From the NCBI RefSeq assembly GCF_030704535.1, contig NC_081823.1:8149001-8213000 (forward strand): 64,000 bases of DNA, in the 5' to 3' direction. Position 1 is the stretch's first letter. Each line of letters begins with the position of its first letter. The stretch comes from Vitis vinifera (Eukaryota; Streptophyta; Magnoliopsida; Vitales; Vitaceae). Made by a program: the position numbers and the translations under genes. Positions 24,270-63,088 of this stretch are shown here, piece after piece. The notes under the pieces were generated by a model. The model was not told the origin of the DNA, did not search any database, and was given only the letters and a program-made list of their open reading frames with translations.

Positions 24270-25403
24270 TTAAATAACATAATCAGACCACTCAGAGATA
24301 TGAGAAGTCTGGTCCATGGTGAAACTGGGAATCTTATCAAGCTTAATTGGATTCTCCTTCCCTCCAACCAACCTTGCGGGGTTCCCAACTGCAGTAGTTT
24401 TCGGAGGCACTTCCTTTAACACCACTGAACCAGCACCAACCTTGGCCCCATCCCCAATTCTAACATTTCCCAAAATACAAGTCCCAGCACCAATCAGCAC
24501 CCCATCGCCAAGCTTCGGATGCCTATCACCAGACACCTTCCCAGTCCCTCCTAAGGTCACATTATGCAAAATCGACACATCATCTCCAATCACCGCTGTC
24601 TCCCCTATGACGACTCCAGTCGCGTGATCAAGCAATATTCCTCTTCCAATCTTAGCCCCAGGATGGATATCCACGGCAAAAGCTTCAGACACTCTATTCT
24701 GAATTACCAATGCCAGAATTTTTCTCCCTTGCGACCACAGCCTATGTGCCACTCTATGAGCTTGGCATGCCAAAAAGCCTTTGAAATTCACCAGACACTG
24801 CACGTAGCTTATGCAAGCTGGGTCTCTCTCCTTGACTGCCCTCAAATCATCTTTAACAGCTCCCATGATTTCCCCATCTTCAACCAACACACCCATAAAG
24901 AGATCATAGAGTGTACTGCTGGGAAGACTCGAATTGCTCAATTTGATCGAAAGATGATTGGCTAGGGCACTTTCCAATGATTTATGAGACAGAATTAAGC
25001 TGTAATAGTAGCTTGACAAGATGGGTTCTTGCTCAACATCAGACCTAGCTTCGTCTTGAATTTTCAGCCACAAATCAGCTCCACAGAGGTCGTCTTCGAC
25101 TGTACTTGTGTGAATTCTTTTGCGGCCATTCTGCGACATGGGCACGCAGGAAACAAGATCAGAGAAACTGGGTCGGCAGAAATTTGCGAACTTGTACATA
25201 TGATCATCGAGTTGGGACCCGTTTGGCTCGCAAGAAAGTTGGTTCGTTTGGGCAGTCTCTGCTCTGGAAGTGTCAATACAAGCAGCCATGAAAAGGCGGT
25301 GTTTGGGGAGAGAGAAAGGGGTAGTACAACGATGCGGTGGTGAGAAGGGAGGTGGGTTATATCGAATAAGAGATAAGGTTCCAGATGTCGCCTGAAGTTT
25401 CAT
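24270..25403 (-). CDS. Serine O-acetyltransferase, SERAT2 type, organelle-targeted
   Basis: Transfers acetyl from acetyl-CoA to serine to make O-acetylserine, the committed step of cysteine synthesis, and binds O-acetylserine (thiol) lyase in the cysteine synthase complex. The frame is 377 residues with no intron, as in plant SERAT genes. Residues about 95-240 form the N-terminal helical SATase domain, including DPACISYVQC. Residues about 240-345 are a left-handed beta-helix of hexapeptide repeats with the active-site stretch DIHPGAKIGRGILLDHATG and the GGTGK motif. The protein ends in ISEWSDYVI; the terminal Ile is the residue that docks in the partner's active site. An N-terminal stretch rich in S, P, R and H without acids (1-38) suggests a plastid or mitochondrial presequence, and a second Met at 39 opens the conserved MAACIDTS start. 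The C-terminal half matches the SERAT2 subgroup rather than cytosolic SERAT1. Confidence 0.95.
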   Translation of the reverse strand: MKLQATSGTLSLIRYNPPPFSPPHRCTTPFSLPKHRLFMAACIDTSRAETAQTNQLSCEPNGSQLDDHMYKFANFCRPSFSDLVSCVPMSQNGRKRIHTSTVEDDLCGADLWLKIQDEARSDVEQEPILSSYYYSLILSHKSLESALANHLSIKLSNSSLPSSTLYDLFMGVLVEDGEIMGAVKDDLRAVKERDPACISYVQCLVNFKGFLACQAHRVAHRLWSQGRKILALVIQNRVSEAFAVDIHPGAKIGRGILLDHATGVVIGETAVIGDDVSILHNVTLGGTGKVSGDRHPKLGDGVLIGAGTCILGNVRIGDGAKVGAGSVVLKEVPPKTTAVGNPARLVGGKENPIKLDKIPSFTMDQTSHISEWSDYVI

Positions 25404-26740
25404 GGAAAATGAAATTTTCTCGGGAAAATCAAAATATAATTAAGAAAGAGTGAGAAAATGGGCTTGTGTCGTTTCCCCGTGTGTAGATTGGCTGGTCTTC
25501 AGGAGGAGGGCGGCCATTTTTTAAATACTCTTTGGAGTCTCCAACAATAAAATAATCATTTAATTCCTCTATCCTTTTCACTTGAAATGCGAGAAAAAGC
25601 AACAGACATAAAATTTGGAAATTGATTTAACACCTCAAAAAAAAGAGAGGTTTGGAAAATGTTAAAAATATATATATATTAAAATAAAATTTAAAATTTC
25701 AATTAAGATTTAAGTGAAATTTAGAAGTTTAATCTTATATTTTAAATTAGAAAAAGATATAAAGAAGTAATGTAATAAGTCATGGTCATAATCTCATGCT
25801 TTATTGTATTAATTATAAATTTTTATTATTGGTTTAAAAAAATTAACATATTTAACAGATATTTATTTTAAAATTTATTTTTTAAATTAAAAATATTAAT
25901 TAATTTTTATCAATAATCAATAAAATATTAAAAACTAATCTCATACTAAATATCAAATTGGAAAAATAAACTAAACTAATTTGTAACCAAAACACGTGTA
26001 AATCATTTTATGGGGCCAAAAAATAAAATAACATAAAAATATAACAAATTACCCAGTAATTGGTGAAGCATTTTGCCCTAACTCGGGAGACAAGGCTGGT
26101 CAATCCTCCACTCCAGCATTAAATGGACCATACACCCACTCTCATCGGACGCTACACGTGGCAAGTACCCAGAAGATATGACCTCAACGATGACCGCACC
26201 CTCCAATTATCATCACTTTACCCCACCTGTGCCTTTCACAATGGCCGGGTGACCTACACGCATTCGCCGCCGGACGTGTCGGGCGATAGAACCCAGGCGA
26301 AGAAGGGCAAGTTTGAAAAGGAACAAAGACGTTCGAGATGACGCGGAGCTCAGTGGACGGCTTTTTTGGCACTTCGATCCGACGGTGCCGATAAAGTCTG
26401 ACTTTGCTAGTGCAGCGCTGACCGTTGCTTTTAGAAATAGTTGGGATTTGTGGTCAAATTCAAATGAAGCTTAGGCTGCTTTTTGGTTTTTACCTCATGG
26501 GTTACGTCCCCCAAGGCATGACCAAAGGGCACGTGACTCACGCGCTTGTAAAAATCACACACGGAATTATATTCCTAGTTTGCAATTAACATACATTTTG
26601 AATTTACGAGCCTCCCAATGTGAATAGGCTTTTTGGCCATTGTGAATCAAAATAAATGCCCAAATTAATCTGGCATGGCCACGTGGACATCCTGACATGG
26701 CAAAGTTAATACTTTGCTATTAAAAAATTGGGAACACTAT
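25404..26740. promoter_or_regulatory. Upstream region of the acetyltransferase with several ACGT (G-box) cores
   Basis: Upstream of the minus-strand gene there are four CACGTG cores: AACACGTGT near 25990, ACACGTGGC near 26154, GCACGTGAC near 26530 and CCACGTGG near 26680. The 26.0-26.6 kb part is much less AT-rich than its surroundings. A TATA-like TATTTAAAA (minus strand) lies near 25520, about 115 bases from the ATG. CACGTG cores bind bZIP and bHLH factors; whether these act here is not known. Confidence 0.4.
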
Positions 26741-28540: not shown

Positions 28541-28549
28541 CCACAAGTT

Positions 28550-28747
28550 GTTTCTCTGAATCAATAGTGCCAAATCCTTCCTACCTTGTGACCACAATTT
28601 TCAAGAAGCAATAAATATAACTTAGGCATGCTGGGTCTATCTCTTCCACTGCTCGAACATCATCTCTAGCAGCCCCTACAACTTCCTGCTCTTCCATTAC
28701 AATACTAGAAAAGACATCAAAGAGGATAGCACTCAGAAGACTTCAAT
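28550..28747 (-). pseudogene. Serine acetyltransferase relic
   Basis: The minus strand reads LLSAILFDVFSSIVMEEQEV, then VGAARDDVRAVEEIDPACLS and YIYCFL, collinear with STLYDLFMGVLVEDGEIMGA...DDLRAVKERDPACISYVQC of the intact gene 3.2 kb away. The next 16 or so residues (the FKGFLACQAHRVAHRL part) are deleted, and after a frameshift WSQGRKDLALLIQRN continues the homology. A stop follows in the original frame. Both ends of the gene are missing. The divergence from the intact copy is large, so it is an old tandem duplicate, not a recent one. Confidence 0.85.
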
Positions 28748-28759
28748 GGAAATATAAAA

Positions 28760-30466: not shown

Positions 30467-31542
30467 TTGTTTTTTTAGCTTAATTCTAAATAGAACTTAT
30501 TTTTAACTTAATACTAAATAATGTTTAATAATATTAAGTATTAAATTGTTTGTTTTTTTATCTACTAAAAACCAATATCTTAATATTTTAATATATTAAA
30601 AAAATTATAATTTAACGTATTTCTATTCAAAATAATAAAATTGTTATAATAAATAATTTATCATTATCATTCTTACAAAAAATAATTAATATATTTATTT
30701 TTTATATAATTAAAATAAAATATTTAAACTTAATAATATGAACTGACTTTTTATATTTGGGGAGGTTTTAAAAATTGAGTTATTTTTGGGGCTTTGTAAA
30801 CTCGTAGATGTACTAAATTCTCAAAGTTGACATATTGAGTTAATGGGCTTTTGGACGACTGACTCAACCCAGCCCAACTCAAACTCCGCCTCAAGAATGC
30901 ACTTTTGGTTCTACTAGGATTTAAATCAAACAGGTTGTAGACATTTCCTTAATTCAACATATATCCTACGATTAATCAAACAAACAACCAGAGAGGATGA
31001 CAAAAAAAAACTGCAGAAAGAAAATTTGAAAACATACATGTTGGATCCGTATGATAGAAACCAGCACTACTCAGTTGCAGGTTGGGGTGTTGGAGGAGGA
31101 ACAACTGCATCAGATGCTTAGCATCAGATGAAATGACAGTCCACTTGTGTGGCAGAGGAGGCAGCGGAGCATACACTGTGGGGTGACGCTTAATATCCCA
31201 TGGCTGGGTTTTACGCGGGCGAGTTTTCATGTGGTGAGACATTGCCTCCTTCTGTGGTCGCGACGAACACTCTATCACCGCCGCACCGCCACCCAATCTC
31301 AAGGTTGCCTTCCTCACACCAAACAACGCCGTCGTGGAATAACGGTCGGGTTGAAAATCGTATTTGGGGAGGTTTCAAAAACTAGCTTTTTCTATTTAGA
31401 AAACTCGAAATATTTTGGTTTTTTCTATTTAACCAAAAATTATAAAATTTCAGTAATAAGTCATTAAAAATTAAAAAAACAAATAACCTAAATACTAAAA
31501 ACAAATTGCTTTCAACAAAAAGTCAAAAAAACAAATACCACC
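30467..31542. mobile_element. TIR element of the same family enclosing a gene relic
   Basis: The left end TAGGTAATGTTTGTTTTTTTAG pairs with the right end AAAAAAACAAATACCACCTTA. The outer parts resemble the 264-bp element next to it. In the middle, between two direct copies of TATTTGGGGAGGTTT (30757-30771 and 31359-31373), lies about 600 bp that the neighbour lacks, and this holds the PSRP6 relic. Confidence 0.55.
31067..31375 (-). pseudogene. Plastid ribosomal protein PSRP-6 (CL25) relic
   Basis: The minus strand encodes [20 protein letters not shown], then [20 protein letters not shown] and [20 protein letters not shown]. This matches what I recall of plant-specific 50S ribosomal protein 6, in which a transit peptide is followed by ECSSRPQKK...HHMKTRP and [11 protein letters not shown]. 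There is no ATG upstream in this frame before a stop near 31378, so most of the transit peptide is lost. A 14-base tandem duplication (GCATCAGATG at 31107 and 31121) shifts the frame; in the other frame the sequence runs [14 protein letters not shown] to a stop at 31067, which looks like the original end. The functional gene must be elsewhere. Confidence 0.75.
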
Positions 31543-33368: not shown

Positions 33369-36300
33369 TCAGAGCTTGACCTCTACATCAACCCCAGCAG
33401 GAAGATCAAGCTGCATTAAAGAATCTATAGTTTGGGCAGTTGGGTATAGAATGTCGATTAGGCGCTGGTGGGTTCGGATCTCAAAATGGAACCTGGCATC
33501 CTTATGCACATGTGGTGATTTAAGTACACAAAAAATTTTCTTCTTGGTTGGTAATGGCACAGGACCCATGGTCTTTGCGTTGGTTGTTCTCGCAGCTTCC
33601 ATTATTTGCTTGCATGAGTCCTCTATCAGGGGGACCCAGTAAGACCTCAATTTAATTCTAATTTTCTGCTTCGGTGCCATCTGAGAACAAGAACAAAGCT
33701 TGAATTGAACCAGCGTGCTGCTTAAGTAAGGATTAGCAAAAGAGTTTAGTATGGTTAAGGATTCTAAGATTAGAAAAGGTTGGTAAAATTTTTTTACTTC
33801 CATATATCATGGTTGAAAATGATAATACTTAAATCTTTCAACCAAGGAATGAACATAAAGAAACATTTCTGGGTATCATCCTAGAAACTAGTCAAAAGAG
33901 GCAAAGATTCCTTCATTCCAATATATTATGTGTCTCTCTTTGTTGGGCGCTTCTCTATTAATATCTTTTCTTTTGGTCTGTCAAAAAGGAAAAAAAAAAA
34001 TTCTCATTCCACAACAATCAATCTTCATAAAAGCATGATATATGATATGTTAGACTCCACCCAAAAACCTTCCCCTAGCTCACCCACCTAGCTAAAATCT
34101 ATCAATTTTTTTTTTTTTTTGGGATAGGTAAATAACGATATATTAAAAGCGCTTGTAAAATGACACATCGGAGTACACACGAAGTATACTTAAAATCTAT
34201 CAAAATATTTTTTTAAAAAAAAATCCTTATAGGATATATGATATTTCATGTACTCTATCCAATTTCCCAATTTATTTCATGTCCTTACCATCCCAAGAAC
34301 TATGAGATTGAGGTTAGAGAAGATTCAAAGGGATTTTCTTTAGGGAGGAGGAGCCTTAGAGAACAAACCACACTTAATGAAGTGGTCGACTATTTGTAAG
34401 ACCAAGTCAAAACAAGGACTAGGCGTTTGATCCCTATCTCTTTGCTAAATAAAGTTCTTCGTTGCAAATGATGTTGGCATTATTCGTGTGAAAAGGAAAC
34501 ACTTTGGAAAAAGGTCATAAGGGCGAAATATAAGGAGAAAGAATGGGAGTGGTGGTCATGTGAGGTGAGGTGACTCTTATAGGCTCAGATCATGGAAAGC
34601 TATAAGAACGGAATGGGATCTCTCTAACACAGGAGTTTCCAAAATGCAATGCATGATGGGAGTAGTCTAGTAGAGTGAAATTTTGGAAAGATAAATAATA
34701 TAGTTAAATGTGATATTCTCATCCTTTTTTGCCATAACCAAATTGAAAAAGGCATAGGTAGCAAATTTATGGGAGCAAAAGGGGGAAAGAGAAGAGTGGA
34801 ATTTCTGTTTTGCAAGGAATCTAAATGACTGAGAGTTGGATATTGTGGAGTGTTTCTTGTTTAAACTCCAAAGATGGTCAATGAATAAGGAGAAGGACAA
34901 AGTAGTTTGAAAGGGGCGATTGAAAATGAAGGTTCCCTATCAAAGCCCTTTATTCTCTTTTGGAATCAGATTGTCTCATCCCTTTTCTATTAGAGATAAT
35001 TTGGAAGTCTTGGATTCCTTTTAAGGTGAGCTTTTTCACTTGGAAGGCTTATTAGGGTAAGGTGTTGACTTTGAACCAGCTCCAAAAAAGAGGTTGGTCG
35101 TTAGTCAATGGGTGTGATCGGTGCAAATAGGAGGCACAATCCATTCATCACATTCTTCTTCATTGTGCTATAGCTAGGATTTTATGGTAGTTGGTGTTCT
35201 CTGTATTCAGTATTCCTTGGGTTATTTCTACCTCAATTAGGAAGACTGTCCTTGGGTGGCATGGTTCTTTTGTGGGTAGAAGGTGAAAGAAGGTTTGGAT
35301 AGCCACTCCCTTACATATTTTTTGGACTTTTTGGAATGAGTGAAGTCGAATGTCAAATCAAAGACTCAAAAGCCCCTTAGCAATCTATCTTTGTGGATTA
35401 AAGTGTATATAGATGGAAGCACTATGTCTTAGTTTCATTTTGTAGATTGGTTGAGTTCTTGTTAATGGAGTGAGTAGTTTTTTGTTTTTCCCTCTTTTGT
35501 GTTTTGCCTCTTGGTGCCCATTATATACATTCCATGTACTCTCATGTGCTAGTTACGCTTTTAATACATTCTCTTATTTATCCAAAAAAAAAGAATCCTT
35601 ACAGGATTCTTCTTCAATGTGACCTAATAAGATGTGAACATCACACCTACTGGTAACTTGCATCCCAACAAATTTTATCATCTGCATACATTCACTTGAA
35701 TAGTTCTACCGACTCAGAAGGCTCAGGCACTTCCTTCTTCCAGTAAGCATGATTTGCTTACATTTCCATTTTTTTTTAACCAAATCTCAATTCTTCCTAT
35801 CTTTTTAAACTAACTGCATTCATTTCCATAGAGAAACCTTAACCAACTAACTTAAACATCAAGAATGTTTGGCAGATCATTTTAACAGCTCAAGCCAAAG
35901 TAACCAACTGCACATATCACCAATATGTTGTAAGCCATTTCAAATATATTCAATTTCATACTAAGTGGAAGTTGATGCTCTTCAAACTAACTTACAGTGA
36001 ACAGCTATAATTCCTTTAGCAATGAAAAAAAAAAAAAATCAAATCCAGGAATAAAAAACACACACACACAACAAAAACTTTCAAATGCCTGAAAAACTAA
36101 AAGGGTGCTTGCTCTAAAATTAAAATTATCATAAAAACTGCATTTAACAATGTATTCCCTTGGTGCAAAATTCATCCAACTCCAAATTCACAAGGAATTA
36201 CATATTAACAAAGAAAATGGAACACTAAGGACCTGTGTGGTTGCAAAATGAGAACTATTGTCTGCTTTCAGAAACATAAAAAATGAAACTAACACTAAAA

Positions 36301-37051
36301 TAAAGTTCATGAGACATTTTTAAAACTACTTTTGACAATATTTCCTATAGACAAGGGCCAAATATCCCTTTCCTTGAAAATGATGCAAATGCAAACATAT
36401 CCATTTTTTTTTTTTTTTCAAGTGAAAATGTTTCTGGAAAAAATCATTTTCATCTCTGCTACCAAACAAGCCCTAAAATTTCCATTCAACTCATCCTCTT
36501 AACAGGTCGCCCAGGAATTCTTTCCTCCTCCTACAATTTATCGGAAACCGAACAGAGCATTAGAATAAAGATAAATACCTTATCCGCATCCACACCCATA
36601 CTCAGCGCAGAAGCCCCAGGAGTTTCAGAACCCTCAACCTAAATCACCCAAATTACTTAAAAAATTTGAGAAAGACAAATGTAGACACACAAAGATTCCC
36701 CATTTTGGTCCCCAGGAAAGCCTCCACCAACATTAGAAATTCAGCTTCTTTTCCAGGAGTTTCTCGGGAACCAAACAGGCGGAAGAAAAAGCGAAGAAAG
36801 AAAAAACAAACCTCAATAGTTGCAGAATCTTCAAGGCCATCAGGGGTTTCTTGGGAACTCAAGAGCTCAGGAGCAGCAAAAACCCTGGAAGAAGAGAGAG
36901 AGGGTTTAAGGGTTTTGAGAGAGGAGAAGGAGGCATTCGAAAGGAGAGAGAGGGACGAAGGTCTGAGTTTGTGGGAAATGGAGGAATTGTATGTGGGAAG
37001 CATTGGAGGCAATCGTGCCGCAGAAGATGAAGTGATAGCCATCGTCGTCAT
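33369..37051 (-). CDS. RPS10: Plastid 30S ribosomal protein S10 (uS10c), nucleus-encoded, three exons
   Basis: Small-subunit protein of the chloroplast ribosome; bacterial S10 contacts the 3' domain of 16S rRNA. Exon 1 is 37051-36812, exon 2 36638-36579 and exon 3 33680-33369, all joined in phase 0 at GT-AG sites, giving 203 residues. Exon 1 (80 residues) is a Ser-rich, basic transit peptide ([24 protein letters not shown]). Exon 2 adds a 20-residue linker (VEG...MGVDADK). Exon 3 opens with [15 protein letters not shown] and holds the whole S10 domain, including the [24 protein letters not shown] and [12 protein letters not shown] stretches. Two in-frame ATGs (37051 and 37042) could start it. 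Intron 2 is 2,898 bp, enlarged by two LINE fragments. From memory, the Arabidopsis orthologue lies next to a serine acetyltransferase gene, as here. Confidence 0.93.
34106..34190 (-). mobile_element. Very short LINE 3' end with 13-bp target duplication
   Basis: On the minus strand it reads as a LINE-like tail (TTTTAATATATCGTTATTTACCTATCCC followed by A14), here seen as a T-run at 34107-34120. The direct repeat TAAAATCTATCAA flanks it at 34093-34105 and 34191-34203. The insertion is under 90 bp and lies in intron 2 of RPS10. Confidence 0.7.
34236..35593 (+). mobile_element. 5'-truncated LINE-1 type element in RPS10 intron 2
   Basis: The plus strand carries the end of a plant non-LTR retrotransposon ORF2 with many stops. 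Scraps include [24 protein letters not shown], then the zf-RVT region [36 protein letters not shown], and [10 protein letters not shown]. The matching plant LINE order is ETLWRKVI, P.K..FF.W.A...., L..RG......C..C, and HL..HC. A poly-A run (35583-35592) ends it. The direct repeat AATCCTTATAGGAT (34222-34235) recurs as AATCCTTACAGGAT (35594-35607), one mismatch in 14. Antisense to the host gene. Confidence 0.85.
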
Positions 37052-37200
37052 TGTGAGTGAACGAGTGAGCGTGGGATTCCTCTCAGAGGTTTATCCAAAA
37101 TGTCTTCTTAGATTGCCCTTTTGGGCTCGGCTCTTGGAGTTGGGTATTGTGGGCTGGGCTCATTCACCCAATAAAATCCAAAGAAATTGTTAGCCCCCAT
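37052..37200 (-). promoter_or_regulatory. RPS10 proximal promoter with three Site II (TGGGCT) motifs
   Basis: TGGGCT occurs at 37122-37127, 37150-37155 and 37155-37160 on the plus strand, 70-110 bases upstream of the ATG. Clusters of TGGGCC/T (Site II, bound by TCP factors) are common in promoters of plant ribosomal protein and organelle biogenesis genes. No clear TATA box is seen. Confidence 0.55.
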
Positions 37201-42832: not shown

Positions 42833-44368
42833 ATGGGGTTTTCTGGGTTCAGTGCAAGCCTTTGTGTTGTGGGTCTTATCTTAGTTCTTTCAGGTGGTGG
42901 TTGTGAAGGAAAGGCAAACGACAACCTGAGATTCATTACTTGGAGTGATTTCACAGCGCGGAGGGCTAGACCCTTGTTGACTGTGAAATGTCGGAATAAT
43001 ACAACCAAAGTTATCGTTGTGGACAAGAATGGAGGGGGTGATTCAGACACAATTCAAGGTGCAGTCGATATGGTTCCCGTGCAAAACAAACAGAGAGTGA
43101 AGATTCAGATTCGTCCTGGAATTTACAGGTCTGTAAATGAAAAGGTTGTGCTTCTTTTTGTGTTTCATTTCCTCAAGAAGGAGACGAAGAAAAAAAACAG
43201 TTTGTTTTTCAACCTTGCAGTTGTGTTTTGGGATCTAGAAACATGGGTGTGGAGGTAGTTATTTAACTGCATGGTCTCTCTTCATTTCTGTGCAGAGAAA
43301 AGGTGTATGTACCTGCATCCAAGCCATACATTTCATTCATTGGGAGCCAAATTCGGTCTGATGATGTGGTGATTACTTGGCACGACAAAGCATCAGATTT
43401 GGACTCCAATGGGTTTCGATTGGGAACAGTCAGAACAGCTTCTGTGACTGTAGAATCTGATTATTTCTGTGCAGCAGGGATCACCATTGAGGTTCCTTTG
43501 ATACAATGGCTAGTTTTCCAGTAAAGCCAAATACTACTTGAATGACCCTTTTTTTATATATATAACTGATATGTGAATACTGTACTGCTTGCAGAATTCA
43601 GTGGTTGCAAGGCCTGGAGTGCCTGGAATGCAAGCAGTGGCACTGAATATAAACGGTGATAAAGCCATGTTCTACAATGTCAGGCTCTTGGGAGCACAGG
43701 ACACCCTCATGGATCTGTCTGGAACACACTACTTTAACCAGTGTTACATCCAAGGAAGCATTGACTTTATCTTTGGTGGGGCAAGATCAATCTATCAGGT
43801 AAAGGGGTTGATCTTGATCATTTTGATAATAGAAATTACTGTTATTGCTTCAATCCAAATGTTGGGTATTTCTGTATGATTCTGATACTTGAAGTTGCTG
43901 TGTTGAACTAGGGATGTGTCATTGAATCAATAGCGACAACTTCAGGAGCAATTGCAGCTCATCGCATGGAATCACCTGACGATGGCACAGGATTCTCCTT
44001 TGTAAACTGCACAATCATTGGAACTGGAAAAATCTACCTGGGAAGAGCTTGGGGTAAATATTCAACAGCAGTTTACTCAAACAGCAGGATCGCTGATATG
44101 ATAACTCCTAGCGGATGGAGTGACTGGAACAAGCCAGAGAGGAGAAGGTATGGATATCAGAATCAATACAACTAAATTCTCAATGATTTTAACCAAGGTA
44201 TTGGAACTGTGCAAATGCAGGACTGCAATGTTTGCAGAATTCAACAACACGGGCAAGGGAGCAGATAGAAGTAGAAGGGTTAAATGGTCCAAGTCTCTCA
44301 GCCTGGAGGAAGCCATGCCTTTTGTGGATTTGAACTTCATAGCAGCAGAAAAATGGCTTAGACTATAG
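42833..44368 (+). CDS. QRT1-like pectinesterase (pectin methylesterase), five exons
   Basis: Removes methyl groups from cell-wall homogalacturonan. Exons 42833-43128, 43296-43491, 43595-43798, 43912-44147 and 44221-44368 join in consistent phase at GT-AG sites and give 359 residues. Residues 1-27 form a signal peptide ([15 protein letters not shown]), so the protein enters the apoplast. There is no PMEI-type inhibitor pro-region, so it is a type II enzyme. Family signatures are complete: GIYREKV, then QAVAL (Q177), AQDTL (oxyanion Gln199 and catalytic Asp200), DFIFG (nucleophile Asp221) and LGRAWG (Arg277, Trp279). The sequence is closest to what I recall of QUARTET1, which separates pollen tetrads, including [12 protein letters not shown] and the WLRL end. 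A paralogue with another role cannot be excluded. It is convergent with the BAH/Agenet gene, as its Arabidopsis counterpart is recalled to be adjacent to one. Confidence 0.92.
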
Positions 44369-45123: not shown

Positions 45124-48100
45124 CTATGCCACCACTTCCATGAGCTCCACTGCTACACATTTCTGTCGAGCAGTTTCAAAATCCTCCAGGTCTAACTCAC
45201 AATCATTGTCATCACCATCATTGTGGTCATCTTCATCATTGTTATTGTTCTCGTCATTGTCATCACCATGGGCTTCATCTAAATTGTCATTATTATGACT
45301 ATCATTGACATGATCAGCATCATTTCCACCCCCTCCATCTTCCCGTGATGGCTGCTTCATTTCATTAACACAGTCCATGTCTTCAGGGAAGCCATAGGAA
45401 CTGACTGGAGCAGCTAAGTCCAACTTATCTTCAACAACATTTTGCATGGTACTAATGGGAGCTATAGGACACAAGACAGCAGCATCCTTACTACTGATCA
45501 AGGAGGTGGAAATCTTTGCATCTGGGCTAATAGCTGCATATATGGCTGACAGTATATCAGGCTTTGCCTCAATATCAACCCACTGGTTTCCTACCCAATC
45601 TCTAGAAATTCTTAAATCCTTGCTGTGCATATTCAAGAACAAGTTTTCACCTAATTTCCCCATAAAAAAATTACATTAGAAAGAGGTAAGAAGGGATAAA
45701 TAGAAAAATGGAGAAAAGAAAGAAAAGAAAAATAATTGCATAAGATTTCCCAACAAGCATACCAGGGATGTAAACTTGCAGAGGACCATCTCCTAAGTTG
45801 TTGGCTTCAGTTATAACGCCCTCCCACCAGCCATCACTCCACCATGCATCCACTGGAGTCCCAACCTTCAAAGCAACATCTGTTTGAGTGCTAGAAGGGG
45901 CTGGTCGAATTGTTGGGCGGCCCAAGCATCTCATGCCAAGTTTATCAGGGGCAGCTAGCTTGAAAATTGAGGTCCATTCCTACACAAAGGAAAATGAATC
46001 AACTTACTTCCCCAGGGAAGAGTTTTCGATTCATAACAGAATTTGAATGCATAACCTAGACTCATGATATATATTCTTCAAGCAAAATGGTTTCTTTCTA
46101 AGTAAACCCCAACTCCCCCCCTTCCCCTTTTTTTTTTTTGCTAAAATGCCTGTTTTGTATGACCCACAGCCAGAACAAGCACCAGATTTTCTGGTTGACA
46201 ATGCTGAGTGCTGACACTATTCACTTGCCAGCCTATATATATCCAGCCAATTCACTGAATATTCATAAGCAACAAGTAGATACCCCTGTTTAAAACCACA
46301 CAAATTAAATCCCCTCCCAGAATTCCAATATTGAAGCAAAGATCAGTGTGAAGGGTTCTTCCTAAAAAATTTCTCACACAAATATGCCACAATATATTTC
46401 CTTACCATCCCAACTTTACCACCTATATTTCCCAGCACAATATCCAGTAAAGTGGAGATGGACATCAGAAAAAATACATTGATTCCAAAGGGTGAACATG
46501 CGTTCAGATGTTCCCAACACATTACAGGCACCAGTAGATAGACATAAGATATCCAATCTTCTTGATGACAAGTCATCCTTGATATGTGAGACTTAAGACT
46601 GGATGTTTTCACAACAAGAGGGGGAAAAAAAGGAGCAAGTGTGTATTTGGATTTTGGAAATACAGGGTTTATTAAAATAGGGCCCAAGTTGTAACCCGGT
46701 ATTCCTGAACTAGACATCCCAGACTTGATCCAATTACTGAACAGCTGAAAATTAACATTATTATAGTTCAAAACCATTTGAAATTATTGTGTATGATAAA
46801 AATTCAAATGTAAATTTGCTAAACCATATCTAAAGGGTTTATTCAGATGGGGAAATAATTTTAAAAGGTGTTTCAGGCATCTGGGCATACCTCAAGATTG
46901 CCACACCCATCTTCATCCTGCACATCAACATATCTAACTTTCATTTGTTTACGACATATCCGTAACACTGTGCACCTGAACCAGCAACCTCGAATGCCAC
47001 TATCTTGACACAACAATTCTATCTTTTCATCAACCTTAAATAGTGGGTTAGGCCAAGGGTGGGGCTCAACATGTTTCTGGGAAAGTAGCCGCCGACTTAA
47101 CAAATCATATTTTAAGTTCATGTGTGGAGATTCATACATCATCATCTGGCTCCCTCGACGAGGTATTCTGGCACATGAACGATCATTCACAAACCTTTGA
47201 CGCCCTCTACAACTTCTAGTCCTCTTAGCTCCCTGCTTTACATTGTCACCGGGGCTTAATTCTTCATCCTCTTCTGCAGTTGGACCATAGCAATCAGAAT
47301 TGGGCTTCTGGAGAGGATTGAGATCCAAACAAGAGAGAATTGCTTGATCAAAATAGCCACGTAATTTACTCAAATCAAAGGGTTTCACCCTATGGCTTCT
47401 AAACTGTCTAAAACAAAGATGAACTCTGGATAAGAAGGCGTGTGGAAAAGCCGCTAAGCATTTCTCATAATGTTCAGGAGTTAAGACTATGGCAGGACCG
47501 TCGACACACTCAGCACTGATAACCTGTGCATAAGGCGTGATGAACACTTCTTTTGGGTGAGGATTTCGTAAAGGAATTACACCCTTGACTTCCTGATTAT
47601 GGTGAAACCACCTCACTCTGACCTTTTTCTGTCCCTTCCGGTCTTCATACATATCTTCCAGATATGCAAGATAGTGATCCTCCTCTTTGGCCATGACAAA
47701 CACAAAGGATTGTATCTGAATATCAGAAAAAAGAAAAATATTGAGAAATTGGCCACTGAAAGAGAAAATTGTACTAACATGCAGCTATCATTACATTTAG
47801 ATCTCAAATAAGGTTTACACATCAAGGCTTGCCTCAGGCCAATTCATGGGAAACTCAGACTGAGAAAATTTAGGGATTAAATCCCTTAATGTTCATTCTT
47901 GAAATATCAAGCCCAGATGGGGCGCAACACTTTGTGCTTTGATGCTCATGTTACATATGAGGCACAAGGCTTGCCTCATGATGATGTTCATGATGCATAT
48001 GTGCTTTGAGCTGTGATGAAATCACATGCTATCATGGAGCTGCCATTATATTAAGATCTCAAAAAAGATTTCCATGATGAAGCTTGCCTCAAGCCTTTGC

Positions 48101-50010
48101 ATGAGGACAATATACTGAGAAAGTTCTGGAATGAAATCCCTTAGGCTCAGTTTGGATCTTGGAGAGAGTTTAAGAAAAGTATGAGGAAAACAAATTAGAG
48201 AGAAAAAATGGAGGAAAGAAAGTGAGGGGAAAAAAATAGGTTTAAACGTAATAATTTATGTTCACATGTTTTCCTAAATTAATCTCTTATTTTCTCTCTT
48301 ACATAGAAGAACTTGAAAATGCATGTTTCTAAATATTTTTTCTCATATTTGATTTTCTCTTCATATCTTAGACGGTAAACAAAATATGAGATTTAGATCA
48401 CTTCCTACTTTTTATCCTCATGCTAGTATTTACCAGTATCCAAACATAACCTCATGTTTTAATGTTCATGTTACATATGAGGCACATTATACATTCCACA
48501 TGGTTCTTTATAATTTCATTGTCATTTCCTCCATTAAATTTTTCTGGAATGAAAAACAGCAATATATAGCTGATTACAACACTAAGTTTTGTTTTAATAT
48601 GTGGACAACTATAGCAACTAACTTTTTGTATAAAACAATTGCCACAAGAAAATTCTAATGCAGCATTTTTCCTGCTTTTTTCAGTTCATTCTTTTTATAA
48701 CACAAAATGTGATTTAATCATGAAGCTCCTAGGCTTACATGTCATACTTTCTCTTTTGAGACATTAGCTGATACTTACCACTATTGTAGTCCCATTCCTG
48801 CAAAATGACGGGTAATGCTTGAGCTGTTTACCGCATGTCCATGCAACACCTGACCATACAATGTCTGAATCATGTCCTTCCAGGTTCCTAGCAAACCGAC
48901 CCTGTTGCACAAGTGTCAGATAAAGAAAATATGCATTGATCTGGAGCTAAAACAGAACATAACAGAAATAAGTACCGTGTAATCTGGCATATGGGCCCGT
49001 CGAGCACCAAATCCAGTCATTGCAAATTGGGAAGATCCTAAACCTTGTGTCAGATCATTTGATGGTGATTCTGTCATTAAAAATGTTATCAAGATTTAAT
49101 CTTCATTAAATTCAAATAAAATCTTTGTCAAAGACATGACAGAAAATGTAAATAAGAAATCAATCTATCACAAGAAAGGCAAGGAAGAAAGACAGTATAT
49201 CACAGACAGGTAAAAAAAAAAAAGAAGTAGCAAGAGGAGCCAACACCCTGGAATCACTTAAAGAAGCAAAATAATTTCGTAAAATGCAGACTGATTAAGC
49301 ACCAAGAAACATTCTTTCCAGATTCCAATTTTCTCTAATTTAGGAAAAATCAGTATTGCAAAGAATATTCTTCAAAAGACAAATCACAGAGAAATCCTGT
49401 AAAGGAAAAGGAGCATTTTTGACCAAGCTCACAAATTTGCTACCCAGGAATCCTCCATGCACTTCTTAACACAGTCAGCATTTTTCTTCTTAATGCTGAA
49501 GAGTCTAATGTGTATTGAACTTTAACATTAAAAAATCTTAATCAACTTTCATGGACGTCCTCAATGAATTCAAATCCTAGAAACTGATACAAGAGAAAAA
49601 TGCAGGACTATTTTGCATAAGGTCATGGTTTGCTTCATAAAAATATTTCTACAATGGCAAGTAGACTGAAGAAATCATGAGAACCTGAGCCTGATGAAAA
49701 AAAAAAAAAACTTACCCGATCCATCTCCAGGCAAATGCTGCTTTGATAGCATAGATGTGAGCCAATCCACAACTTCCCGCCTGGATCTCCATTTGAAGCC
49801 AGCATGAACAGAATTTTCCGACCCGTATGCATTCAAGAACTCATCAGCAACAACGTAGAACATGTGTCTGACACTCCTCTCAGTGCCCACAACTGCAAGG
49901 ATGAAATTCCCAGCAGAATCCTTCAAGAAATAGTGAACCACACGGTGGCCACGCTCTTGGGAGACAAATTGCTCTTTCCACTCCACAAAACATTGACCAT
50001 TTGCAGACAT
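45124..50010 (-). CDS. BAH and Agenet domain protein (probable chromatin reader), six exons
   Basis: Coding exons 50010-49716, 49070-48976, 48901-48779, 47715-46891, 45979-45763 and 45650-45124 join in phase and give 693 residues. The N-terminus (1-98) is a conserved plant region (FVEWKEQFVSQERGHRVVHY). Residues about 145-265 form a BAH domain (DIVWSGVAWTCGKQLKHYPS, then AYLEDMYED and VRVRWFHHNQEV). Two Agenet/Tudor-like modules follow: about 397-458 (FKVDEKIELLCQDSG, CWFRCTVL, MKVRYVDV) and about 475-540 (VGTPVDAWWSDGWWEGVI). BAH and Agenet folds usually bind nucleosomes or modified histone tails, so a nuclear role is inferred. The C-terminal 100 residues are an Asp/Asn-rich acidic tail. I recall an Arabidopsis gene of the same architecture (At5g55600) beside QRT1; no function is claimed. 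Confidence 0.9.
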
Positions 50011-54037: not shown

Positions 54038-57000
54038 TCAAGTGCCAAGATTGGGTGCACGAGTTGACACTGGTGGGCCATGAGAATATCTCCACTGTCC
54101 GCATGCACCACATTTGTCTAACTCTACGTTGTTTTCCAGAGTACAGAATTTACATGACCAGACTTTGTACTTGATACCAACATCTTTTGGCTTCTCAGTG
54201 CTGCAAACCTTGCATATAGGAGCTAATGGCTGCAGCAATGCACCATCATTTACAAGCAAAAGACACATGAGTTCCAGTGGGAAGGTATCCAAAGCAAAGG
54301 AAAAAAGTAACTCTGCTCACAAAAACATTAACATAAAGCAAGATGAATCATAGGAAAAGACATGAACCCGGCTTGTTAGAGACTCTAAAGCAAGGAGCAG
54401 CGGCAGAGGCCTGGAAATTAATCTGGGGTGGGAGTGCAAGATTTTGTAAGTTTATTTCAGGGGAGGCACCAAAAAAATAAATAAGTAAAGCAAAACTACT
54501 GACTGTAGCTTAATGGTCAAGGCTGACTCCTTTGAGTAGGGGATAAAAAGTTCTCAGAGCGAAACAGGGGGTTGGGGCGGTTTGTTTGTGGTGAGTCACT
54601 TGCCCCCTTGTCCATCAAGTGGCTCCCGTACTAGCAAGGAGCCAATAGAGTTAATGCAAGTTTTGAATGTCAAAGATGCTATAAACATATCTCGTCCACT
54701 TCCCCAACCCTAGAGATATGTAGGTTTGCACCTAGTGAAGCTAGAGTTAGTTATTGAAATAGCCAAATACAATAAGCAAAGTAAAAAAAAAAAATTCAAA
54801 ACATGAGAAAGAGAGAGGGAGAAAGAGTTGAGATCTCCATTTACCAATTAAATAAATTCATGAGTGCAATGATTGAAATACTTACTGGATTCAACAAAGT
54901 GCAAATTCCACACTCCCACATAATCGATTCCTCAGTATTGTGAGTTGCATTGTGGCCAAGCACAGACCCAGAGGCTGAAGCACACTTGGATAGATCCACA
55001 AAACTTGATCCTGGATAACAATTAGAAGATGAGAAAACAAAATATTAATCTGATTCACAACTTTTTTGAACCTTGTATCATGGTTAAGTATGGGGTTCTG
55101 AAGTTGAAGCATATCCATGATGCATGTATCTGGATGACTACTAAAGGACCAAGAAAATGGCCAGTTACCAGTTTCATGACTTCTTTTTCGAGATGTCACA
55201 TCCAAATCAAGTGCACCTCTACCACTACCATGACTTGACATTCCAGCACTTTGCTCCCTATGTACATGCCTGTCAGAGAGATCAGAGCTACTTTCACCAC
55301 CCTCTGAAGCTTCACAACTCTGGGAGCCACACCAGATATCATCCTGTAATCTCCTTTCTGCAGCCATTGCAGCAGCTTGTATTGGACTAAGTGCATCCAT
55401 GATACTGCTATCACCTCCAAGGCGTTTAGGACCAGATGGCACTAGAGATCCTAGACGGGCTCTCTTTTCTGCAGCAGCAAGTGCAGTTTGGCGTAGAGAT
55501 GAAACAGGAGGTTGACGAGAGAAACCACCCAAACGCCTCCCAGGAAGATCAAACCCCTCCCCTGTTCCAGTTATGCCCTTTGCCATCAGCTCCTCACACT
55601 CCTGCATGTGGCAATAAGCATACCATAGAAGTAAAAGAAGCAAAATAAAAAGAAAAATAAACAACGTCTAATAATTCTTCAGCTCAAAACTGGTTTTCCC
55701 AAAATTTTCATTTGATTCATTCTGAAATAGAAAATTATGCCTTAGTGTATCCAAAATCCATCTCCATGCCATCTACATAATTTCCAAAATAGGTATGACT
55801 TCCCAACCCCAGCACAAAGTCAACCCTCTTTTGCAAGGCCTAACTTGTGTGAAAAAGATAAGGAAGATTCATACTCAAGCTATCTAGACAGAAATATAAC
55901 ACAGAATAACCAACAAAAAGATCATAAGCTATGTAAACACATACAATATAACCATTCACCACTAGAAAATTGAAAATATTTGAGAAAGCATCTACAATGG
56001 GAATCACATTTTAACTAAGTACTATAATTCTTACTACAACGAGGTTTAATGGGAAATTTTCTACAACCATAAGTATAGCATATGTTGTAGTGGGAAATCA
56101 TATAAAATAGTAAGTTGATAATGGACATATTTTGCATGAAAGTTAAATAGACTAATGAGCATCAACAATCAAACTGAAAGCAGAAAGCACTAAATATCTA
56201 GGTCCTAAACTTATCCTCTTTTCTCCATTGACTATTACTACATTTGGGTCTTGGAAGGAATAAAACAATGAAAATACAATGTTTCCTTATGATCTTGAAG
56301 CATTTATCTTCAATTCCTCATGCTGTACTAATAAGGACTTCTCAAGGGCCTTTTCTCAAACAAAACACAAGTCAAGCTCCATATGTTTAGCTCTGCAATG
56401 TAAGGCAAGATTGGCACTAAAGGAAACAACTCTTGAATTGTCACATCAAAGAATTGGAACTTTGGTTTGCAAAATTCTAAGTTCTTTAAGCAGGGAGTGA
56501 AGCCAAACTGTCTCTATTGCAGCATTAGCTAGGCTTCTATATTCGACCTCTGTGCTTGATCTTGAGGTTAGTTTACCTCTTTGAACTCCAGGTCATAGGA
56601 CTGTTGCCAAGAAAGATGCAAAATCCAAATGCAGATTTTCTATCATCTGGATCTAATACCCAGTCAGTCTTGTAAGAACAAGTTCAGTGGCTTAGGTTTA
56701 AATACCCTTCAATGGATCAGATAATCATAGGATGAACATCACCATGAGCATGAGATTCAGTTTGACTCTCACGAGTTGGTACAAAAAGGACTAGAGGAAT
56801 TTTAGGAGTGGCAAAGGTTGATTTAGAGGCTGGAATAGGAGAACCAGCACCAGTTGATGATGGAGAATGCTAATCTAAGGATCAAGAAAGTTGGTCTGGT
56901 GTTTGAAGCTTAATTGAGGAGCACGATCTAGAAAGTTGGTCCATTAATTGAAGCTTAATGGACCAAGAAATGAGGTTCCTGAACTAGCAGAAGTTGACTT

Positions 57001-60000
57001 GGTTTGAAGAAGTTTGATTTGGTGATGAGCAACAATTCAGCTTGAGCCTTAAAATGGAGGAATAATTAACCCACCTCAGACTTACATTTGAGGAAATAAA
57101 TGTAAGTATAATGGGAATAGACACCAACAAAGCTTACATAATATTTAAACCTATTTGTGCAACACATTGGTGCTGCCCCCTAAAGACTAGAGTGGACCAG
57201 CTGCAAAGGCTCAATGTAAATAGTATTGAAATAAAAACAAAAAAACAAGAAAAAAAGGAAGTTTGTGACTCTTTCCAAATTACCAAGCAAAGCAAAAATA
57301 AAATTCTTGATGATAGAAACAGGTACTTCACCATCAGATAAAATTTTCCTTACTTGAGAGGCTAAAGCTTTGTTTGGGAAATGTTTTTAAAAACAGTTTT
57401 TGATAACAGTTTTTAAAAACTATTCTCAGATGTTTTGTAGAATAAAGGTCTATTTGGAATTCTAAAATATTATTAACTTGTTTTCTATGTTTTTAAATAT
57501 CTTTTAAAAATAACTTTTATATGTAATGCTTTATTTTTAATCATTCTCCATATTTGTACAATTATTTTTTAAAACCCTAAGAAAACCAGTGAAACAACTA
57601 AAAAATATTCTTTGAAAACACTTTTTTTTTTAAAGAATAAAAAACTGTTTTTTATTTTTTAATTGTCAAACATGTTTTCCTGCTTTTTTTATTTTGGATA
57701 ATAGAAAACTATAAACTATTTTCAAAAACAATTGCCAAACAAAGCATAGACGTCCAGGCTTTTTATGCCATAAATTTAGAACCTTATTACTGGAATTTAA
57801 ATAAACAATTGATTGATTAACAATTGAAGAGATTGACTTGGTATTGGAACTAGCTGAATACTTTAATTCACTAGCAAAACCATAAAACTCGAAGTAAATG
57901 TTAAACATGGAAGACTAGACTTGATGTGGAGGAATTGATCTTAGATGGTGGAGAAATGGTACAATCCTTCATGGAGCTCCTCTTAGAGCAATGGCATTCC
58001 CTATGACTTGTTTCTTCACAAGACAAAAAGTAGGGTGAAGTTCAAAGAAATCTCCATTATCTTTTGCAAATTGACTCTAATAAGTGTGAGGTATATCTAA
58101 GAGATTGGAAAGAGCAAAAACTTAAGAAGAATTAGGTAAACAAAGAAAGAAAGACTAATATAATTGATTGTCAAACCTACACCATTACCCATGCAAAATT
58201 TGTTTGTATCATGATACTCAAACCAAAGATCAAACATGCTCAAATCATTGGTTGTATGGTTTGTGGCACCCAAGTCTGAGAAGCAAGAATTGTTAGTGAG
58301 CAAATCGAAGGTGGTGGCCAATGCTGCAAAAGGATTAGTGTTGTTGGTTGCATTCCCATGTTGTTAAAGATGGAAGGCCTATTGTTGCTTTTCAAGCTTG
58401 AGAAATTTGGGGCCAATTAATAATAATATTTTTCCTATAAAAAATAATAATAATAATAATATTTTTTTTTTCCCATAGGGTTGACATTGAGGCTTGGAAC
58501 ATTTGTTCCAAGTTATTCCTTAACCACAACCATTGCATCCTGCACTTGGTAATTTATTGGTGGTTGTTCTATTAAAAGGTATTATTGCAACCATTAAACT
58601 CTTCTGTTGATTTTGAAACATCAAATTCATTGTTGGTTGTATGACATTAGTGTTTGCTATGTAGTGCTCAATTTAATTCTCATGGGCAAGAAATAAAGCA
58701 CCCACATCAGACAATGAGTCTGGTTCCAACCAAGAAGTGGTCAAGACAACCACAAATTTGCATTCAATGCTAAGCCCAACTAGTATGTAGAGGATTTGAT
58801 CCTCTTCTAAGATCAAATCCTTATTGAAGCAAGCACATCAGCACACAACTTCATCTTTACAAGATACACCCTCATGCTCAATCAACCTTTCTTCAAACTC
58901 TGTAATTGTAGTTTATACTACATTAGCTTCGCTGTGTGTTGTGAGGTAGACTTTCTCTAAGGTGCACCAAATATCACAAGCAGTGCTGCATCCAACCATG
59001 GAAGCAAACATGCTTGCAATCATAGAGGAGAAAATTGATGCCTCCATATGAGAAAATTGTTGTCAATCAAACAATGCCTGACTGAGTTGTTGGGTTTATA
59101 ATCTGAATGTTCTAGGTATTAATGGGATTGACTGATACAACTATTTGGGTTGTAGGATTTGAGGTATTGGAAGATTCAGTGGCAAGTGTCATTGATGAAT
59201 GTTGTGCTCTGATACTAAGGAAACTAGCAGAAATTCAAAGAAGTGGAGGCTAAACCATATTTGAATAATGGATACATACAGATATTTAGGCATAGAATTA
59301 ACAAACTAAGCCAATACAACACAAGTAGTTGGCAAAGGAAATATTGCAATCCCTAGGCAATTATGCTACAGGACATGAAACTCTGAATATTCAAGAATAG
59401 GACATAACTAATTCTTGATAAGTTATGGAGCTAACCTTGCATTATCTCTAACAAAGACCTACAAGTTAAGTACAAAAGCATAAAACAAGATTACAAAAGC
59501 GTCTACAACGGTATAACCCACCCCCAGGTAGAGCTTTTATGCAACTCCAATAACTCAATACATACCTATATAAATAGATTTTTTTTTTTTTTTTTGTTAG
59601 GTATTAAAAGGGCTTGCATTAGAAATGCCTAAAAGGCGGTGAAACAAAATGCATACATATATAAATAGATATAGTGTATATATATATCAGTTATCATTAC
59701 TTGAAACAAGCTGTGGAGTAGAAGAAAAAAACCTTTCTGATTTCATCCCAAAGCTTGTAGAAATCTGCATTATGAGGACCATGGACATTGTGGCAAAGCT
59801 CATGAAGCATGGTATCAAGAATTTGATCGAATGGGAAGAAATCCCAATCTCTGTTGGGCCTCCGAAGTCTCAACTTCACATGAATGCCACCCCCTACATT
59901 CAACCCTAGAAGAGCCGGATTGTTTGGGCTGCAATTTCATTTATTCATTTTAATTCCATGGGGGAAGAAAATAAAACGAAAGGGCAAAATGAACAATGAA

Positions 60001-63000
60001 GTGAAACAAAAACAGCTTGAAAAATCTATTCGGTGGCTAAGAAAGCATCAAAAATTAAAAAGGAACTTCAACTGAGGTTAGAGTTGTAATGCTAGCATTC
60101 CAAATTTTCTACTTACCTTTACCTCAAGTTTCTTGGCAACCAAATGGGATATAATCTAAAATCCAAGTAAAAAAAACTTAACCCTTTATTACACATAAAA
60201 CATAGGAGAAAACAAAAAATGTGATAGAGACAAGTGGCAATCACCTGTAAAAGTTTAACAAAGGCATAGAAGATTAGACTTTTAAGGCCCAAACTATGTT
60301 CTGGCATATTTATTAAGCAAAGCAGAAATATTCTACCGATAACAAAAAATGTGATGCACTGGTTCAAGCTTTGCGGCACTTGCATCATTATCTTCTTCCA
60401 AAGGTGTTTGTTTTATATTCTGATCATGAAGCTCTCAAATATCCAAACTCTTGAAGGAATTTTAATCACCAACATGGGCAATGGGTCTCATTTTTATAAT
60501 AATACCCCTACGTCATTAAGCACAAATCTGGTGTTGTGAACAAGGCATTTGACACTCTTAGCGGAGTGGTGTATATTCTTTCTTCCATGGCTGCACAAGT
60601 CGTGGGATTTAACTCACTCAAGAGAGCTAATCCTTCTTGCAAAGATTTTAGAATTATATATGCTGCTCTAGTAGCTGGAAATTTGGGAGAATATGCTGAT
60701 TTTTCATTATATGATGGATATCTCTTCTAAGGGACTCGATGTTGCCTACCCAACACATCATTCCATGAGCATGTGGCATGAGAAGATCATTTTTGTTGGC
60801 CAGGTTTGAAAAGGGATGTGGCTGAGAATGTCCCAAGATGTCAATCCTGCCAAGCAGCCAAGGGAAAAAGAAAAATACAAGTCTATGCATGCCACTCCCT
60901 GTACCAAATGAGCCATAGCAAGACCTAAGCATGGATTTTGTCCTTGCTTTGCCAAACACTATCAGAGGGCTTGATTGCATAATTGTGGTGGTAGATTGTT
61001 TCTCTAAGATCACTTTATCCTGAGCTCAAACACTTCAGATGCTATCCACATTGCTAAACTCTTCTTCAAGGAAATTGTCTGCCTTCATGGTTTCCACTGT
61101 TTCCTAAAAACCATTATTTTCAATTGGGATGGAAGGCTCATGAGTTACTTTTGGCAAACTTTTGGAAATTTCTAAACACCAAATTAAAATTTTCTTCTGC
61201 TTTTCACCCTCAAACAAATGTCCAAACAAAAGTTATACATGGAAGCTTGGGTGATCTACTTTGCTGCATAGTCGGAGAAGCTGTTATTAGTTGAGATCAA
61301 ATTCTTCCACTGGCTGAAATTGCATATGATATCTCCATGAACTGGTCTACTGGTTGTAGTCCATTTGAGATTGTAACCTGGATTTCTTCCTATAAAGCCT
61401 ATTGATTTGGTTCCTTTACTAATGGACATATGAACTAGTGTTGAAGCTGATGCTTTTAGCAGGCATATGCATGAGATACATGATGATATTCGACAAAAAT
61501 TCGTTTTGAGCCATGAAAATTATAAGGCATATGCTGATGTGACAAGAAAATTTTCTGAATTTATGGAAAGTGACATGGTTATGGTGTGAATAAGGCCTAA
61601 ACAATATCCTAGAGGTGTCTACAAGAAACTCCACTCCAAGAATGATGATGCCTATAAAATTCTCAAGAAAATAAGCTCCAATGCTTATGTACTTGGCTTG
61701 CCAGAAAATATGGGCATTAGTAACATTTTCAATATTGAAAACCTCACCCCTGATTCCGATCCTAAAGCCACTACATCAATTAATGATCCAAATGCTCACC
61801 TCCCCCCAGCCCCTTGATTATTGAAAGAGAAGATAGAAGATGTAGTTGATCACCAAATTCTTTCAACTGGGGCAGGGTGTTAGCAAAGTATCTCGTGAAA
61901 TGGAGGGGGAGACCACTTTCAGATTGTACATAGACCACAAACAATGAGTTTCATCAATAGAATCATGACATTTATGAGAAATTCCATACCTTGTAACTTG
62001 TCAGGGTTGAGCTTCCTAAGTTGGGATAGTTGATGGAGACAAGTGGCAAGCACCAATAAAAGTTTACCAAAGGTGTAGAATATTGGACTCTAAGGCCCAA
62101 ACTATGATTTGGCACACTTTGCATGATGGTGAGCCTAATTGAGATTTTATGTGATTCAATGTGGATTTCAGCCCATGTTTTGTTTGAGTCTAGTCAAAGG
62201 GTCACAAGAGTTCGTATTTCCAAAATCATTAATGTTTCATAGTTTCGTGAGTCTTTCGTTGTCCATTTGGATACACTTCCTGCTTTTCATTTTTAAAATT
62301 AGCAATTTTTATATAAAAGTAAAACATCTCATATTAAAAGTAAAGATTTTACCTTATATCTTTCTAAATCGCCTTCAGAAATTTCAATGGAAACCTCTTG
62401 GAGGTTCGGTATCTTATATAAAAGTAATTACTATTTTCTCATTTTAAAAACAAAAAGTGTATTCACACCAACACTAAATTTTTTTCGTCAACCAGTTCAA
62501 GTTCTTTAGTATTACAGTGATTAGTTCACTCTTTAAGGTTGTAGTGAATAAAGCTGGTCAGCCTATTTTCTAAAAGGATAATGAAAACACAAAACCTTCC
62601 TGCCTTCAATTCTAGTTTGTATGAGATAAGCCCAAGGTTTCTGAGGGTGATTCGTAGAGTCCCATCATTTTTCTTTTACTTATCTATCTGCATTAAAATG
62701 AACTCAAATTTTGTATACAAATCTTTTCGAACAAAACAGTTTGAAAAATAAATTCCCACAATTCAGCCATCAAACGGAAATAATTACAAATTGAAGTCAA
62801 TCAAAGCTCAAACCTTGATTACCCTTGAATAATAAGAGGAAAGGGCAAAGGAGCGGAATTTCGTTTTCATTTTTCGTTTTGTTTTCCCTTCATATATTCT
62901 CGGGAACCAAACAAATGTTGAGAAAAAATTTACCAGAATTCAGAGAGAAGCTTGACTCTCCATTTGTGTTTCCGCATAATGGGTTGGACATGTTTGGCTA

Positions 63001-63088
63001 CCCTCTCCAGAATCTTCCTCGCTTCATCTTCTCCAGCCTTTTTCAGGGGCTTCACTTCCCATACCTTGTTGAGATCGCCCAAATTCAT
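54038..63088 (-). CDS. WLM-domain metalloprotease with two RanBP2-type zinc fingers (Wss1-like), five exons
   Basis: Wss1/SPRTN-type proteases degrade proteins covalently trapped on DNA; the plant member WSS1A is reported in DNA-protein crosslink repair. Exons 63088-62934, 59928-59733, 55601-55169, 55010-54886 and 54229-54038 join in consistent phase and give 366 residues. The WLM domain starts at residue 1 (MNLGDLNKVWEVKPLKKAGE), passes LGLNVGGG and LRLRRPN, and contains the zinc-binding HELCH at 94-98 with a third His at 104. Residues about 118-262 form a variable basic/Ser-rich linker with an RRLGG motif and FDLPGRRLGG. Two WxCxxC...CxxC fingers follow: MWECGICTLLNPP...CKVC, split across exons 4 and 5, and VWSCKFCTLENN...CGAC. 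Introns 1 (3.0 kb) and 2 (4.1 kb) are filled by retrotransposons. No break is seen in the coding sequence. Confidence 0.9.
54480..54620 (+). mobile_element. Possible tRNA-derived SINE remnant
   Basis: CTGTAGCTTAATGGTCAAGG resembles a pol III box A, followed by GTTCTCAGAGCGAAAC, a weak box B, about 50 bases later. It lies in the last intron of the WLM gene. No A-rich tail or target duplication was resolved. Confidence 0.35.
56220..59217 (-). pseudogene. Decayed Copia element in WLM intron 2
   Basis: On the minus strand, a primer-binding site TAGTATCAGAGC (59217-59206) resembles the TGGTATCAGAGC copied from initiator Met-tRNA. Gag scraps follow (CDIWCTLEKVY, TITEFEERLIEHEG, LVGLSIECKFVVVLT), then the protease end (FSDLGATNHTTNDLSMFDLW, with DLG for DSG) near 58290, and RNase H at 56690-56250 (DWVLDPDDRKSAFGFCIFLG, SSTEVEYRSLANA, KHMELDLCFV). 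Stops and deletions remove most of the integrase and RT. The MITE at 57367-57745 is inserted in it. The 5' LTR would lie right of 59217. Confidence 0.75.
57367..57745 (+). mobile_element. Complete 379-bp MITE, copy C
   Basis: The ends GCTTTGTTTGGGAAATG and CAATTGCCAAACAAAGC are inverted repeats with two or three mismatches. Sits inside the Copia remnant and has the same orientation as copies A and B. It is the best-preserved of the three. Confidence 0.75.
59580..59651 (-). mobile_element. Very short LINE 3' end with 19-bp target duplication
   Basis: A T-run then TTAGGTATTAAAAGGGCTT reads on the minus strand as a LINE tail ending CCTAAC(A)n. It is flanked by CATACCTATATAAATAGAT (59561-59579) and CATACATATATAAATAGAT (59652-59670), one mismatch in 19. 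Confidence 0.7.
60230..62115 (+). mobile_element. Decayed Gypsy element in WLM intron 1
   Basis: The plus strand carries the 3' half of a Gypsy polyprotein with many stops: an RNase H scrap (VLYSDHEAL, HQHGQWVSFL), then VVYILSSMAAQVVGFNSLKR, integrase scraps (WPGLKRDV...CQSCQ..KGK, a degraded core, and FHPQTNVQT) and a C-terminal region (YKILKKISSNAYVLGLPENM). The flanks 60229-60310 and 62034-62115 share GAGACAAGTGGCAA, TAAAAGTTTA and GGCCCAAACTATG blocks in direct order, so they are probably remnants of its two LTRs. Confidence 0.75.
62116..62933. other. Remaining part of WLM intron 1
   Basis: No repeat or coding sequence is recognised here between the Gypsy remnant and exon 1. Confidence 0.35.

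Follow-up and report, generated by a model that had tools for sequence, protein, structure and literature searches.

A gene row on grape chromosome 19 as the probable better-kept copy of an order divided among three Arabidopsis regions

Rows of neighboring genes that are kept in grape and split in Arabidopsis are a textbook pattern. A 64,000-nucleotide window of Vitis vinifera chromosome 19 (C19:8149001-8213000; coordinates without a contig prefix are positions in this window, and other contigs are denoted C1, C10 and so on) carries one such row. It comprises genes for a serine acetyltransferase (SERAT), a plastid ribosomal protein S10 (RPS10), a candidate QRT1-like pectinesterase, a protein with BAH and Agenet domains, and a WLM metalloprotease. 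The original prediction, made from the letters of the window, was that the row is an unfractionated ancestral block of which three Arabidopsis regions each retain two neighbors: WLM with SERAT, SERAT with RPS10, and QRT1 with a BAH/Agenet gene.

The Arabidopsis side was taken from papers, and the adjacency of each pair was inferred from consecutive locus numbers alone. The Arabidopsis SERATs are At1g55920 and At3g13110 (PMC4330696), and the two are tabulated as a pair from the alpha whole-genome duplication (PMC4202327), so that two of the three Arabidopsis regions contain a documented duplicate pair. Similarly, At3g13120 is given as an S10p/S20e family protein (PMC4778361) and At5g55590 as QRT1 (PMC6232315). 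At1g55915 is described with a WLM domain and two RanBP2-type fingers (PMC7154859) and named WSS1A (PMC10118267), and AT1G55910 is ZIP11 (PMC12279101). Five of the six loci named in the prediction were thereby confirmed, At3g13120 as an S10p/S20e family member only. We take At3g13120 to be the plastid S10. For the At5g55 region, no counterpart evidence for duplication was found in the literature. A search for a published account of the gene row returned none, and in the six papers listed with more than one of the six loci, the loci named together were the two SERATs only.

The row in the window consists of the following genes.

24270..25439, minus strand: SERAT in a single open frame, of SERAT2 type by its long N-terminus, with the C-terminal tail kept
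about 31102..31374, minus strand: PSRP6/cL38 (plastid-specific ribosomal protein 6), by PF17257 and PDB matches, ends approximate
33369..37090, minus strand: plastid-type RPS10, with the S10-domain frame at 33369-33806 and the likely first, transit-peptide exon inside 36653-37090 (placed by reading frame alone)
42833..44368, plus strand: candidate QRT1-like pectinesterase, five exons, no inhibitor pro-domain recognized
45124..50010, minus strand: BAH and Agenet gene, five or more exons
54041..63091, minus strand: WLM metalloprotease gene of WSS1A type, with a WLM domain, two RanBP2-type finger motifs and long introns

All five predicted genes were recovered in one row, in the expected order and at about the expected places, from open frames and matches in Pfam and the PDB. 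SERAT matched SATase_N (3.7e-36) and Hexapep (2e-13), and its top PDB relative is the serine acetyltransferase 4n69 (3.8e-118). Elsewhere in the genome SERAT occurs at three places, on C10, C11 and C4 (the last partial), with a relic in the window counted apart. RPS10 matched Ribosomal_S10 (3.8e-34), and its four top PDB relatives include chains labeled plastid or chloroplastic S10; the protein is of plastid type. Among six S10-family matches in the genome it is the sole one to span the full domain (positions 1-98), the others (on C1, C20, C10 and C16) being partial, and this search found no other grape counterpart of At3g13120. Two of the partial matches, C20:488842-489000 and C1:26825507-26825665, are equal in score, and C10:18092535-18092693 contains a stop. 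Some of these partial matches may be a mitochondrial rps10 and its nuclear copies.

The five joined exons of the pectinesterase matched PF01095 at 2e-63 over positions 2-297 of 298, with no other family listed, and the gene is a candidate for the QRT1-like member of the pectinesterase family. The BAH/Agenet gene matched BAH (6.5e-09) and Agenet (1.2e-12). In the WLM gene, the Pfam domain is spread over three exons (positions 2-47, 47-112 and 112-189 of 190). A HELCH motif and two RanBP2-type finger motifs were seen by eye, the Pfam finger match falling below the cut-off (19.5 versus 27 bits), and the domain architecture is shared with WSS1A. The gene was present as predicted but extends to about 54041. 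Elsewhere in the genome the sole other WLM match is at C12:6583492-6583593 (seven candidates scored). Farther along C19, outside the window and 38 kb from the WLM gene, is a ZIP transporter gene (C19:8249848-8251649).

The row has a sixth member, PSRP6, that the prediction lacked. It was recognized by PF17257 (2.7e-31 at about 31120-31293) and by chloroplastic PSRP6/cL38 in the PDB (1.3e-23). The gene sits between SERAT and RPS10, so these two are not direct neighbors in grape. PSRP6/cL38 belongs to the large and RPS10 to the small ribosomal subunit; the two plastid ribosomal genes are on the same strand about 2 kb apart.

Compared by locus numbers, ZIP11-WSS1A-SERAT2;1 (At1g55910 to At1g55920) agrees with the outer members of the C19 row after loss of those between them, and SERAT2;2-RPS10 (At3g13110 and At3g13120) agrees with the other end of the row. 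The ZIP-WLM-SERAT order may therefore be kept in Arabidopsis too, and the C19 ZIP gene is a candidate for the ZIP11 type within the ZIP family. It is very improbable that the neighborhoods match by chance or that the loci of the prediction are wrong. Such an explanation could draw on At5g55600, a putative BAH/Agenet gene that found no mention in the literature searched. Nevertheless, the remaining five loci are confirmed, ZIP11 adds another locus in order, and a random pair would be adjacent in only about 7 of 100,000 cases, given the approximately 27,000 genes of Arabidopsis.

A second copy of part of the row was detected on C10. The SERAT at C10:2426617-2427552 shows 63% identity to the window SERAT over 324 aligned positions, and about 11 kb from it lies a BAH/Agenet gene (about C10:2438929-2454079). 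The order and strand of the two genes are alike on C19 and C10. When window frames of at least 30 amino acids were compared with 200 kb around the C10 SERAT, 57 matches passed a limit of 1e-3. The strong ones were SERAT and five BAH/Agenet frames; the others repeated these sites in another frame or were short and repeat-like. PSRP6, RPS10, QRT1 and WLM had no convincing match in the 200 kb, the best E value being 0.05 in a relaxed search (limit 10, or 1 for PSRP6), with the WLM finger exon covered by the stricter 1e-3 search only. No frame of at least 130 amino acids was listed between the C10 SERAT and BAH genes, an interval in which smaller or many-exon genes could lie. Separately, window positions 1321-1827 and C10:2449283-2449709, between C10 BAH/Agenet exons, are 64-89% alike in translation and probably represent a shared repeat.

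Synonymous distances between the C19 and C10 copies, calculated with a simple Nei-Gojobori script, were 1.13 over 627 codons of BAH and 1.73 over 299 codons of SERAT, the latter close to saturation. These distances are old and compatible with the gamma hexaploidy, and the C10 block is probably the gamma sister of the C19 row. The grape gamma triplet is presumably formed by chromosomes 10, 12 and 19; terms for this triplet did not occur in the ten papers listed by a literature search. The description of the row as unfractionated was not borne out: SERAT and BAH/Agenet are the only row genes found in the 200 kb of C10 compared, so that gene loss has affected one sister copy or more in the window's own genome. 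The window row appears to be the better-kept member of a set of two or more copies that an older duplication, probably gamma, produced, and its SERAT-BAH core would predate that duplication.

We conclude that the C19 row is probably a better-kept copy of an ancestral order, from which Arabidopsis obtained its scattered pairs through duplications and complementary loss. On this account, SERAT and BAH/Agenet would already have been neighbors before the older duplication, likely gamma, that gave the C10 sister. In grape, C19 would then have kept the old order SERAT-PSRP6-RPS10-QRT1-BAH/Agenet-WLM-ZIP and most of its genes, and C10 would have retained only SERAT and BAH among those tested. In the Arabidopsis lineage, later duplications (alpha and, to account for the third region, beta or gamma) and complementary gene loss after them would have left ZIP11-WSS1A-SERAT2;1, SERAT2;2-RPS10 and QRT1-BAH. 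Since both lineages share the row, its order would predate the Arabidopsis-lineage duplications. This part of the original prediction is partly supported, with the qualification that the At5g55 region may descend from either a C19-type or a C10-type copy.

A single row broken by translocation, together with one alpha duplication, in which case only SERAT2 was truly duplicated, could also yield the three Arabidopsis pairs. SERAT alone is documented as a duplicate pair, and the limited literature passages gave no second row locus for RPS10, QRT1, BAH or WLM. Nevertheless, complementary retention in documented alpha partners accounts for both SERAT-RPS10 and WSS1A-SERAT without a translocation, and we regard this explanation as unlikely.

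A more substantial, if still doubtful, alternative concerns the third region. At5g55590-At5g55600 might come from the gamma sister, that is, from a C10-type copy, which would make its QRT1 and BAH genes paralogues of those in the window and separate them from the duplications behind the other two regions. On C10, the BAH gene is followed about 55 kb on by a two-pore-type K+ channel gene, and TPK1 is AT5G55630, a few locus numbers from QRT1 (PMC6073294, PMC3410407). Along 40 kb of C19 past the window, no such channel was seen among frames of at least 130 amino acids, and no C19 flank frame of at least 30 amino acids matched the C10 channel at 1e-4. Nevertheless, QRT1 had no match along the 200 kb of C10, and a C10-type origin would require its loss there once the line to Arabidopsis had branched off. 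In addition, the C10 genes PGLP, NIPP1, NPH3, PPR and MAP70 resemble genes of At5g46-47 and At4g16-18, the regions that contain TPK2 and TPK3. A TPK2/TPK3 type is equally possible for the C10 channel; when it was searched against the PDB, the best 60 of 238 matches included no two-pore channel from a plant. Either sister copy could be the source of the At5g55 region. A C19 origin is somewhat favored, because a QRT1-like gene was seen in the 144 kb of C19 that were read and none in the 200 kb read of C10.

Several observations weigh against the C19 row as the common source of the three regions. The C10 channel gene could tie At5g55 to C10 rather than to C19. The C19 flanks (80 kb) gave 12 matches to the 200 kb of C10 at 1e-4, all of them short or retrotransposon-like; with no gene-like flank match, the block has only two anchors, SERAT and BAH. 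The third homoeologue to be expected on C12 was not located; a WLM match at C12:6583492 was all that was seen there. Finally, Arabidopsis PSRP6 is AT5G17870 (PMC10761087), outside all three regions, so not every row member falls in one of them. This gene may have moved, may belong to another copy of the row, or may have entered the row by insertion in grape.

The proposed history also bears on the naming of SERAT2 genes. The C10 SERAT is without the usual C-terminal tail, which the window SERAT keeps, and VvSERAT2;1 is described without this tail (PMC4330696). VvSERAT2;1 is therefore probably the gene on C10, and VvSERAT2;2 the one in the window. Because the grape pair looks older than the Arabidopsis alpha pair, SERAT2;1 and SERAT2;2 of grape and of Arabidopsis are probably not one-to-one orthologues in spite of their names. 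A broader proposal is that the C19 row is a near-complete pre-gamma eudicot block, that the two-member SERAT2 sets arose independently (by gamma in grape and alpha in Arabidopsis), and that parallel evolution shaped the isoform names and organelle roles. We offer it tentatively, as falling somewhat short of an even chance.

The other features recognized in the window were as follows.

28553..28742, minus strand: broken tandem SERAT relic in two frames (48% over 48 residues, 75% over 16)
2922..4850, minus strand: cytochrome P450, CYP71-like by eye, from reading frames; the edge of a P450 array running upstream on C19
19189-19635 (PF00067, 2.4e-18) and 21692-22117 (by eye), minus strand: P450 fragments, from reading frames

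The relic is a frame-broken second copy about 3 kb away from the intact SERAT. Upstream of SERAT, the CYP71-like array and its fragments (by eye) occupy C19:8118005-8132589 and window positions 2922-4850 and 19189-22117, and a copia-like element was seen by eye in the array neighborhood at C19:8110643-8114672. Pfam matches below threshold on the minus strand were to an RVT_2 reverse transcriptase (14164-14406) and to a copia-type gag (about 58931-59041), the latter within a WLM intron region.

Raw-frame Pfam scans covered three minus-strand frames at 9.5-24.2 kb (P450 and the sub-threshold reverse transcriptase), six frames at 25.5-33.3 kb (PSRP6 and the SERAT relic), three plus-strand frames at 42-47 kb (the pectinesterase) and three minus-strand frames at 49.5-64 kb (WLM with the sub-threshold gag). 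No Pfam family was found in one plus frame at 5-20 kb or in five of the six frames at 37.2-42.7 kb. Scans of the window for tandem repeats, tRNAs and Rfam families produced no relevant hit. Because these raw-frame scans covered the window in part, more small genes are possible, for example on the plus strand, past 47 kb and over most of the first 25 kb.

The locus can be compared with two known systems. Like the Arabidopsis alpha pair At1g55920/At3g13110, the grape pair belongs to the SERAT family, and the neighbors of the Arabidopsis genes by locus number match WLM/ZIP and RPS10, respectively; unlike that pair, the C19/C10 pair of SERAT2 type appears to be older than alpha. The grape and Arabidopsis SERAT2;1 and SERAT2;2 are thus perhaps not one-to-one counterparts, which calls for caution in naming. 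Like gamma-homoeologous segments of grape, the C19 and C10 blocks share two genes in matching order and orientation at old synonymous distances; they differ from such segments in that 144 kb of C19 and 200 kb of C10 share no more than two anchors and that a third copy was not located. The row provides a clean local example of how one order can be split by complementary loss after duplications. The pattern is the one expected from the known ancient duplications, with grape keeping rows that Arabidopsis scattered, and is an ordinary case of a well-known kind.

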